Source: a virus. From it: a DNA stretch of 20,903 nt. The position numbers were made by a program, and so were the translations under genes. The first letter of the stretch is position 1. Every line of letters starts with the position of its first letter. Below, one piece after another: positions 919 through 13,983 of the stretch. The notes under the pieces are model-generated. The model had not been told where the DNA came from, did not search any database, and saw nothing but the letters and a program-made list of their open reading frames with translations. The DNA is taken from positions 1 to 20,903 of the IMG/VR virus record IMGVR_UViG_3300036760_000158; one strand, written 5' to 3'.

Positions 919-1199
919 GGTATGGACCCTGGCAAGCACTCCTAGCAGTATGGCTGCTCTGGGCCAGGACAACCGTGGCCGGGCCTCTGGCGGACGAGCG
1001 TCACGTGAACAAGAGCGGCATGTTCCTGACGCTGCAAGCTTGTTCCTTGGCGAGGAACGCGGCAGCCCAGGCCATGGCAAGGGTAGGATGGGAAGAGATT
1101 GGCAGGAACGAGGGACATATCATGCTCTTCCGTCTGACGCATGGACACAGCCACGAGACATTGCTCTGGTGTCAAGAGGAATCCAATGCCGCCCCATAA
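900..1199 (+). CDS. Small exported or membrane-anchored protein, unknown function
   Basis: A 99-residue product starting at GTG 900, chosen because GAAGG at 888-892 sits 7 nt upstream and because the next residues form a signal-like segment: basic start (RGR), hydrophobic WQALLAVWLLWA, then small residues TTVAGPLA. The mature part has a regular mixed composition and two cysteines. It overlaps the lipoprotein gene by 19 nt in another frame and ends just before the integrase promoter. No domain recognised. The pairing with a lipoprotein in the lysogeny region suggests two envelope proteins made in the lysogen; this is inference. Confidence 0.5.
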   Translation: MRGRGVGYGPWQALLAVWLLWARTTVAGPLADERHVNKSGMFLTLQACSLARNAAAQAMARVGWEEIGRNEGHIMLFRLTHGHSHETLLWCQEESNAAP

Positions 1200-1204
1200 G
1201 CCCC

Positions 1205-1234
1205 TTGACAGACACCGGGACACTGTGCTAGTGT
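1205..1234 (+). promoter_or_regulatory. Integrase promoter P_int with overlapping inverted repeat
   Basis: Perfect -35 TTGACA at 1205-1210 and TAGTGT at 1229-1234, spacer 18 nt. The same TAGTGT box is used by the leftward promoter at 3791-3818. An inverted repeat GGGACACT-GTGCT-AGTGTTCC (1217-1237, eight-base arms with one G:T) covers the spacer and the -10 box, so a bound repressor would block it. The leader to the integrase ATG is about 105 nt and contains the tRNA-like fragment and the direct repeats. Confidence 0.55.
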
Positions 1235-1274
1235 TCCAAGTCACGTCACCGTAAGTGCGCGATTCTCGGCCCGC

Positions 1275-1315
1275 GGGGGGTTAGCTCAGCCCGGGAGAGC
1301 GCTGGAATCGCACTC
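1275..1315 (+). other. Candidate attP: 5' half of a tRNA-Ala(CGC) gene
   Basis: The stretch reads as acceptor strand GGGGGGT (1275-1281), T8-A9, D-stem GCTC (1284-1287), D-loop AGCCCGGGA with the conserved GG, D-stem GAGC (1297-1300), anticodon 5' stem CTGGA (1302-1306) and loop ATCGCAC (1307-1313) with anticodon CGC. After TC at 1314-1315 the match stops: the expected 3' anticodon strand, T-arm and acceptor strand are absent. It lies 33 nt before integrase. Integrases commonly use tRNA genes, with crossover in the anticodon or T-loop region. Here the likely shared core is around 1303-1315. The host tRNA is not in the window, so attB is inferred. Confidence 0.55.
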
Positions 1316-1316
1316 G

Positions 1317-1339
1317 GTGGCCCAAGGCGTGGCCCAAGG
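1317..1339 (+). repeat. Tandem direct repeat GTGGCCCAAGG beside the att core
   Basis: Two exact copies of GTGGCCCAAGG (1317-1327 and 1329-1339) with a 12-bp period. The second copy contains AAGG of the integrase Shine-Dalgarno. Close tandem repeats next to an integrase core site suit arm-type or accessory binding sites. Binding at the second copy would also affect int transcription or translation. Confidence 0.45.
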
Positions 1340-1347
1340 AGGGTGCG

Positions 1348-2328
1348 ATGGCCTACGGACCGGTGCACGGCCCCTTGACCCGAGCCTCGCTCCGAGCCCG
1401 AGCCCGAGCCCGCCAGGTACGTCGGGTGCTGCCGGGGATCAAGGCACTCGACGCAGATCACGATTCCCGGTCCGTGTCAAGGGGTACGCTGGGCCAGTAC
1501 CTCGCCACGGTGTATCTGCCCCAAGCCTCGCCCCGGTGGTCGCCCACGTGGCGGAAGTCGGTGCTCGTGCTCGTGGCCCAATTGACAGCCGAACTGGGCG
1601 GGGTACCCCTGGCCTTGCTAAGCCGTAAGACGGTCCGCACATGGTGGGCCCTGCACGAGGGCAAGGTCAGCCGTGGCGAGTGGCGACCCGCCACCGCGAA
1701 CCAGCGACTTGGGCTCCTGCGCCATGTCTACAACGTGGCCTTGGCCAACGGGGACGTGGACCACAACCCGACCCTGGGGCTCCGCAAGGCCCGTACGGAC
1801 CCGTCCACGCTGCCGACCGAGCACTTGACGGACGCGGAACGGGATCGGGTCCTGGAGGCCTGTGCCACGGCCTCCCTGGACTTACACGTGGCGGCGCTGC
1901 TGGCCCTGTACTACGGCGCGCGACGGAACACGGTGCTCGTGACCAAGATTCAGGATATTGCCTGGGATCGTGGTGTGCTGACGCTGCACGCGACCAAGAC
2001 ACGGGCACGGCGGGAGCACCCGATCCACCCGCGGGTCGATGCACCATTGCGTGCGCTCTGCGCGGCCCGGGAGGGGGCGGAGGCCCTGGTTCGCTACACG
2101 CCGGCCGGGCTCACCCATGCCTGGGCCCGGGTCGTACGCCGGCTCGGGCTTGGGCGCCGGTTCCGGTTCCATGGCCTGCGCCATGACTTTGGGACTCGGC
2201 TCTTCGCGGGGACCAAGGACTTGAGGCTCACGCAGGAGGCCCTGGGCCATGCCCGGGTGGCCCAGACGGAGCGCTACACCCATGTCGCGGCTGGGGCCGT
2301 CAACGGGGCCCTGCTGGGGCTCCGCTAG
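1348..2328 (+). CDS. int: Tyrosine recombinase / phage integrase
   Basis: A 326-residue integrase, a usual length for this family, that would catalyse site-specific insertion and excision of the phage at a host tRNA gene. The start follows a strong AAGGAGGG at 7 nt. Residues 45-150 form the SAM-like core-binding domain (YLPQASPRWSPTWRKS onward). The catalytic domain follows: Arg I R192 in YYGARRN, Lys217 in HATKTRARR, HGLRH (His275, Arg278, His279), His301 in ALGHA, and nucleophile Tyr310 in TERYTHV. All catalytic positions are present, though the usual Glu after Arg I (RGE) is replaced by RNT. Residues 11-26 are very Arg/Ala-rich, encoded by CGAGCC repeats, where an arm-binding domain would start. 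It is convergent with the small leftward operon, overlapping its last gene by 29 nt. Confidence 0.93.
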   Translation: MAYGPVHGPLTRASLRARARARQVRRVLPGIKALDADHDSRSVSRGTLGQYLATVYLPQASPRWSPTWRKSVLVLVAQLTAELGGVPLALLSRKTVRTWWALHEGKVSRGEWRPATANQRLGLLRHVYNVALANGDVDHNPTLGLRKARTDPSTLPTEHLTDAERDRVLEACATASLDLHVAALLALYYGARRNTVLVTKIQDIAWDRGVLTLHATKTRARREHPIHPRVDAPLRALCAAREGAEALVRYTPAGLTHAWARVVRRLGLGRRFRFHGLRHDFGTRLFAGTKDLRLTQEALGHARVAQTERYTHVAAGAVNGALLGLR

Positions 2329-3790: not shown

Positions 3791-3818
3791 ACACTAGCAT
3801 AGCCCGTATGCTTGTCAA
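3791..3818 (-). promoter_or_regulatory. Leftward operon promoter with embedded operator-like palindrome
   Basis: On the minus strand TTGACA (3813-3818), a 16-nt spacer and TAGTGT (3791-3796) form a good sigma70-type promoter; transcription would start near 3784, about 45 nt before the first gene. The spacer is almost entirely a perfect palindrome AGCATA-GCCCG-TATGCT (3796-3812), whose outer bases touch the -10 box. A dimeric repressor bound here would block polymerase. Confidence 0.6.
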
Positions 3819-4252
3819 GGACTATTTTCATGGACCGTGGCCGCGCCTCCGTCTTGCGTCCCGATAACGCACCGCGGCAAGGGACCAGCGCCTATTCCTG
3901 TATATAGAGATAGAGCTAGACCATGGCACGTGTGCTGTGGCTCGTGACACGCGTGCTGTGGCACGTGGCACGTAGGACTAAGTACTTGTTTCTCCTGTCC
4001 TATTCCTACAAAACATGAGTAACAAGAGGGGTGAGAGTAACGAGAGAGGGGAGATTAGCGCACGCGTTTCCCAGGGAAAGCTCACCCCCGGCTGACCCTC
4101 CAGTTCGGGTGGGTCGGCTCCGGCCGGCGCGACCCGGCTGGCATACCCGAGCGTGTCCTTGGCTGCGACATACCAAGCACGGGGCAGGTCCGTCTGACCT
4201 GGCGTAGGCCGGGTGCCGCGTACGTCCAGCCGGCCGTAAGTCCCCGTTCCCT
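3819..4252. promoter_or_regulatory. Repeat-rich intergenic control region
   Basis: This stretch separates the leftward operon from the rightward late genes. It holds a TATATAGAGATAGAG AT-rich patch (3901-3915), two and a third imperfect 21-bp repeats (3927-3976), the 9-mer CCTATTCCT on both sides of them (3891-3899 and 3999-4007), and a purine-rich double repeat of GAGTAAC followed by AGAGGGG-like sequence (4017-4051). A weak rightward promoter is possible (TTGTTT at 3986-3991, TACAAA at 4007-4012, spacer only 15). The only protein-like content is the uncertain frame at 4015-4259. It could be an operator region or a replication origin with iterons; nothing decides between them. Confidence 0.4.
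3927..3976 (+). repeat. 21-bp imperfect tandem repeats with CACG...CGTG ends
   Basis: Units 3927-3947 and 3948-3968 match at 18 of 21 positions and share GTGCTGTGGC; a third copy starts at 3969 (CACGTAGG) and fades. Each full unit begins with CACG and closes with CGTG, so each is also an inverted repeat, as expected of a dimer-binding site. They sit directly after the AT-rich patch. Confidence 0.5.
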
Positions 4253-13747: not shown

Positions 13748-13820
13748 GTGACGGACCCCCGACGGGGGCTGCCGGCCTGTGAAGCCGGGGCGTAGGGTTC
13801 AACTCCCTACCGTCACCCCA
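13748..13820 (+). tRNA. tRNA-His (GTG), with abnormal D-arm
   Basis: Acceptor GTGACGG (13748-13754) pairs perfectly with CCGTCAC (13810-13816), then C73 and an encoded CCA. Anticodon stem CCGGC/GCCGG is perfect, with loop CTGTGAA and anticodon GTG. The T-arm TAGGG-TTCAACT-CCCTA is normal. C73 is the tRNA-His discriminator, but the -1 base is T, so the His-specific G-1 is not encoded. The D region is only CCCCC-GAC-GGGGG, without U8 and without the G18-G19 pair that docks on the T-loop. It is either a functional but unusual tRNA or a drifting one. Confidence 0.7.
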
Positions 13821-13826
13821 TCGCAC

Positions 13827-13901
13827 GCGAACGTAGCTCAGATGTAGAGCCGCGGTTTTGTAAATCGCAGGTCGGAGACTCAAGCCCTCCCGTTCGCGCC
13901 A
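13827..13901 (+). tRNA. tRNA-Thr (TGT), with weak T-arm
   Basis: Acceptor GCGAACG pairs perfectly with CGTTCGC; discriminator G and CCA are encoded. U8-A9 and D-stem GCTC/GAGC are standard, but the D-loop AGATGTA lacks GG. Anticodon stem GCGGT/ATCGC has one G:T; loop TTTGTAA gives anticodon TGT, reading ACA. The T-arm GGAGA-CTCAAGC-CCTCC has an A53:C61 mismatch and C instead of T54, which is unusual. Six nt separate it from the tRNA-His. Confidence 0.7.
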
Positions 13902-13908
13902 TTCAGGT

Positions 13909-13983
13909 AGCGGGGTAGATCAGCGGCAGATCGCCGGGCTCATAACCCGGAGGCCGTGGGTTCAAATCCCACCCCCGCAACCA
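13909..13983 (+). tRNA. Initiator tRNA-fMet (CAT)
   Basis: The gene shows the initiator hallmarks. Positions 1 and 72 are A and A, unpaired, while 2-7 pair (GCGGGG/CCCCGC). The anticodon stem CCGGG/CCCGG has the three consecutive G:C pairs next to loop CTCATAA. The D-stem GATC/GATC has A11:U24, the purine-pyrimidine order of initiators. The D-loop AGCGGCA has GG; T-arm GTGGG-TTCAAAT-CCCAC is perfect; A73 and CCA are encoded. An elongator Met tRNA would have a paired 1:72 and a different anticodon stem. It would be formylated and start translation at AUG-type codons. It is the best-formed of the three tRNAs. Confidence 0.9.

Follow-up and report, generated by a model that had tools for sequence, protein, structure and literature searches.

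Probable Integration Site and Integrase Gene

If a phage carries its attachment site between a promoter and the integrase gene, would integration exchange the promoters of the integrase and of the host tRNA gene? This question is raised by the window analyzed here, a 20.9-kb linear fragment (20,903 nt in full) of a podovirus that encodes terminase, portal, capsid, and tail tube genes as well as a tyrosine integrase, and in which a core region (1275–1315) separates a predicted promoter (1205–1234) from int (start at 1348). The portal (PF12236 match, 4e-117) has its closest annotated relatives among the pelagiphages, at ∼33–38% identity. A tRNA cluster (13748–13983, plus strand) is located between the scaffold-like and capsid genes; ARAGORN calls His(GTG) and Met(CAT) in this cluster, and a third tRNA (13827–13898, plus strand) is detected by Rfam only, with the anticodon TGT (Thr) read by eye. 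Two imperfect 21-base tandem copies of TGGCACGTGTGCTGTGGCTCG (3924–3965) occupy an intergenic position ahead of rightward genes.

The product of int (1348–2328, plus strand; 326 aa) is a tyrosine integrase according to PF00589 (3e-20) and phrog_1 (1e-33), in line with the integrase named in the initial annotation, and the gene has the ribosome-binding site AAGGAGG and the catalytic motifs in its reading frame. Residues 53–148 give a weak match to the central domain PF22022, no recognized arm-binding domain was found in the N terminus (∼50 aa), and structure prediction without an alignment gave a pLDDT of 36. No relatives of the integrase were found in the viral and phage collections searched. 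Between the core and the int start, a tandem 12-base repeat, GTGGCCCAAGGC (1317–1340, plus strand), overlaps the int ribosome-binding site; a third CGTGGCCCAA occurs at 1572, beyond this repeat.

The core region itself is the 5′ half of a tRNA-Ala(CGC) gene (41 bases, plus strand), comprising the acceptor strand GGGGGGT, the D arm GCTC-AGCCCGGGA-GAGC, the anticodon stem CTGGA (1302–1306), the loop ATCGCAC (1307–1313, with the anticodon CGC at 1309–1311), and a final TC. A search of one genome per species with the loosened pattern TAGCTCAG-2/3-GGGAGAGCGCTGGAATCGCACTC returned 17 loci from several phyla, 16 of which are intact tRNA-Ala(CGC) genes. Each of the 17 shares 23 unbroken bases with the phage, and none matches one base further to the right, so that the identity stops at 1315 (…GCACTC), 2 bases beyond the anticodon loop. 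ARAGORN and Rfam make no tRNA call on the 5′ half alone, as expected for only half a gene. When the phage half was joined to the natural 3′ halves of 16 loci (L024, the remaining locus, lacks one), tRNA-Ala(CGC) was called by ARAGORN in 15. These results bear out the earlier reading of the element as a 5′ rather than a 3′ half, and its placement of attP in the anticodon arm. Integrases that act at the anticodon loop cut in the region where the phage copy stops, and the overlap for crossover is most likely the loop at 1307–1313. With high probability, this segment serves as attP for a podovirus that is temperate or can at any rate integrate.

A Predicted Promoter Upstream of the tRNA Half

A promoter ahead of the tRNA half, with int after it, had been proposed from the layout, and its elements are present on the plus strand: a −35 hexamer TTGACA (1205–1210) and a −10 hexamer TAGTGT (1229–1234), separated by a spacer of 18 bases and with TGC ahead of the −10. 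The −10 agrees with the consensus at 3/6 positions, which explains why the promoter is absent from the list produced by a standard sigma-70 scan. The same class of promoter recurs in the window: a perfect TTGACA followed after 16–18 bases by TANNNT occurs three times (1205, plus; 3818, minus; 97, minus), compared with 0.017 per shuffle, and TGCTAGTGT is found only at 1226 and at 3799 (minus), in both cases as the extended −10. The second of these belongs to a sister promoter, TTGACA-16-TAGTGT (3791–3818, minus strand), which is situated ahead of a leftward operon of small genes and provides a yardstick for the int promoter. From this recurrence, the element at 1205–1234 is probably a real promoter.

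Within the leader, the stretch at 1247–1265 (plus strand) is antisense to 1305–1319, with 15 pairs and two 2-base bulges. In the transcript of the free phage, this stretch could form a hairpin over the tRNA half, with a significance that depends on the control: its predicted energy (−29 kcal/mol) was matched by 1 of 2000 shuffled leaders, and in a second control 5% of same-geometry pairs elsewhere were as good, with a z of −0.93 for the whole fold.

Repeats Flanking the Core

The initial annotation had overlooked that the TTGACA hexamer belongs to a repeat with copies to the left and right of the core. The motif CCCCTTGAC has exactly three copies in the 20.9 kb, at 1201 (plus), 1371 (plus), and 1476 (minus), all of them clustered in 284 bases that surround the core; shuffled windows are expected to hold 0.24 copies, and clusters of three copies within 300 bases arise in them at a rate of 0.05 per window. 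On the putative P arm, the repeat search identified CCCCTTGACAGACACCGGGA (1201–1220, plus strand), which holds the −35 hexamer, and a near copy, CCTCTTGACA (1170–1179, minus strand), which matches 1201–1210 at 9/10 bases. On the putative P′ arm, within int, it identified the exact copy of CCCCTTGAC at 1371–1379 (plus strand) and CCCCTTGACACGGACCGGGA (1465–1484, minus strand). The segment 1201–1220 agrees with the reverse complement of 1465–1484 at 17/20 bases, a score reached by none of 150 control regions.

Given that they flank the core left and right, at the distances of arm sites, these repeats look like integrase arm-type sites, and we infer that the integrase would bind at CCCCTTGAC. Since the −35 hexamer lies inside the repeat at 1201, such binding would be expected to repress the promoter, as for IntS of KplE1; the position of the repeat thus suggests autorepression of the 1205–1234 promoter by the integrase.

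Search for a Host

The exact 33-base stretch from the D arm to the core is absent from ∼85,000 species genomes. Searches of genomes and viral contigs with the exact core and with shorter patterns identified no host, and no attB, attL, attR, or lysogen with the exact core was found in the genomes searched. A counterpart to a junction is on a contig of a metagenome-assembled genome (L024, 6581–6622), where a tRNA-Ala(CGC) 5′ half breaks off at the very base where the phage copy ends. This half has a promoter-like stretch in front and is followed by non-tRNA DNA with the repeats TTTGGCACAAA/TTTGACACAAA, a pattern expected at the host-side junction of an element integrated in the anticodon arm. 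The other junction is absent from the L024 assembly. A second match in the same genome (L066) was considered as this other junction and rejected, as it is a different tRNA-Ala with the anticodon stem-loop CTTGCATGGCATGCAAG.

Alternative Readings of the Locus

The L024 junction shows that host DNA ending in a tRNA half can have the appearance of this locus, and the contig analyzed here might likewise be the end of a prophage, with positions 1–1315 representing host chromosome, complete with the native promoter and 5′ half of the host tRNA gene, and phage sequence starting at ∼1316; there would then be neither a phage promoter nor a phage 5′ half. Composition is consistent with this reading, in that bases 1–1270 have a GC content of 62.5% compared with 67.8% in the rest of the window, and their word composition, more deviant than that of any same-sized piece elsewhere in the window, could indicate host DNA. 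An upstream ORF (170–709) also has no relative in the phage collections searched. However, a host flank would not be expected to carry arm-like repeats, which here occur to either side of the core, and the upstream ORFs have no match in Pfam or PHROG, unlike ordinary chromosomal genes. We therefore regard a prophage end as unlikely, and the segment as most likely the attP of a free phage, because the arm-like repeats flank the core on both sides.

A genuine attP could still lack the promoter, if TTGACA were an arm site only and int were expressed from further upstream together with the preceding genes, in which case integration would provide the tRNA with no phage promoter. The position of the hexamer within the repeat, the lack of a −10 at the other repeat copies, and the weak −10 at 1229–1234 are all compatible with this. 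Against it, TTGACA with TGCTAGTGT recurs at 3818 (minus) where there is no arm repeat, and cyanophages of Prochlorococcus also have TATAAT ahead of their tRNA half; on this evidence an arm site alone seems rather improbable, though less so than a prophage end. It is also conceivable that the 5′ half is simply a long core, and that integration destroys the tRNA, with the loss tolerated or covered by another tRNA. The phage does have other tRNA genes, and tRNA-dependent lysogeny exists (PMC10865867), but its tRNAs are those for His, Thr, and Met rather than Ala. Moreover, the whole 5′ half is kept as far as acceptor base 1, with a promoter ahead, which would be needless for a 10-base core, making destruction of the tRNA the least probable of these readings.

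Proposed Exchange of Promoters

The tRNA half and its end point, the integrase gene, the two-sided repeats, and the recurrence of the promoter are established directly. From these features we infer the crossover point, the identity of the arm sites, autorepression, and a swap in expression, the last of which follows from the order of promoter, half, and int. Before integration, transcription from the 1205–1234 promoter would run through the tRNA 5′ half into int. Recombination by the tyrosine integrase would take place within the anticodon loop of a tRNA-Ala(CGC) gene in the host (1307–1313 in the phage copy), with assistance from the putative arm-type sites on either side (1170/1201 and 1371/1476); when occupying the P arm, the integrase would in addition repress the 1205–1234 promoter. 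Because identity to the tRNA loci stops 2 bases beyond the loop, crossover within the loop would connect the phage promoter to the rebuilt tRNA and put int under the host tRNA promoter. One junction would thus consist of the phage promoter, the phage 5′ half, and the host 3′ half, such that the tRNA gene is rebuilt under a phage promoter; the other would consist of the host tRNA promoter, the host 5′ half, and int.

On balance, we lean toward this full model as the working explanation of the layout. It would imply that integration itself switches expression, by a simple wiring that requires no repressor, that excision and the supply of integrase in the lysogen track the host tRNA promoter, and that the host relies on a phage promoter for one of its tRNAs. 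Counting against the model are the absence of a host with the exact core from ∼85,000 species genomes, the 3/6 agreement of the −10, the integrase N terminus in which no arm-binding domain is recognized, and the deviant composition of bases 1–1270; in addition, a lysogen whose int is driven by an active tRNA promoter might not be stable. A more elaborate version is doubtful, and we offer it tentatively: a two-way exchange in which the host tRNA would come under a phage promoter autorepressed by the integrase and int under a growth-regulated tRNA promoter, with the hairpin masking the tRNA half solely in transcripts of the free phage.

Comparison With Known Systems

In the outward-promoter arrangement of ICEclc, the circle places Pcirc ahead of int, so that the promoter faces int only in the circular form; the att site of this element is the 3′ end of tRNA-Gly, and the tRNA keeps its own promoter. 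The attP of the ICEclc circle is likewise found between an outward promoter and int (Pcirc/intB13; PMC2892462, PMC9286271), although this element is an ICE and not a phage. In KplE1 intS and in prophages with a tRNA-then-int order, the int promoter overlaps att and the arm sites and int is autorepressed (PMC2951348), similar to the arrangement suggested here; these systems differ in using the 3′ tRNA end, and their int promoter stays with int after integration.

Archaeal integrases of the pTN3 type share further aspects of the model: the tRNA 5′ half is attB, the rebuilt tRNA comes under the integrase promoter, and part of int ends up behind the tRNA promoter (PMC8371274, PMC5495485; for the anticodon-loop cut point of integrases, compare PMC8371274). 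Their attP lies within int, which is split on integration, whereas int is intact here. A review of the archaeal systems describes a rebuilt tRNA on an integrase promoter as "seldomly" met in bacteria (PMC8371274), and a case from a bacterial phage is worth having for that reason.

The initial annotation had also considered a 5′ half to be atypical of phages. The phage indeed carries one, but so do 9 of the 10 T7-like cyanophages examined, in which a tRNA-Leu 5′ half is beside int, in the int direction and downstream of int. In cyanophages, the published attP motifs correspond to the first half of tRNA-Leu, and integration has been shown (Shitrit et al., PMC8776855). The T7-like cyanophages (P-SSP7, S-TIP37, and relatives) resemble the phage studied here in being podoviruses with a tyrosine integrase and a 5′-half attP that extends to or just past the anticodon, and the Prochlorococcus members have TATAAT upstream of the half (∼20 bases ahead of it in P-SSP7, P-SSP2, and P-SSP3; ∼46 in SS120-1). 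They differ in the position of the half, downstream of int rather than upstream between the promoter and int, and in the tRNA used (tRNA-Leu rather than tRNA-Ala(CGC)); no relative of the integrase from this window was found in the phage collection. Each feature of the locus therefore has precedent, and what is new is the succession of promoter, 5′ half, and intact int, in that order, in a bacterial phage.

Layouts of att differ among the relatives of this phage. Two long (40-kb) relatives by portal have a tRNA 3′ half ∼500 bases after int, the usual layout (L041, 146–201, minus strand; L042, 2523–2590, plus strand; both read by eye as tRNA-Pro), and no integrase was found in the relatives by terminase.

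In several cyanophages, the tRNA-Leu 5′ half faces the phage RNA polymerase gene (L062, 5700–6045; L079, L080, L082, L084, and L085), and integration would place this gene behind the host tRNA-Leu promoter; in other cyanophages, the half points at different genes. If the model proposed here holds, cyanophage attP sites merit rereading in this light.
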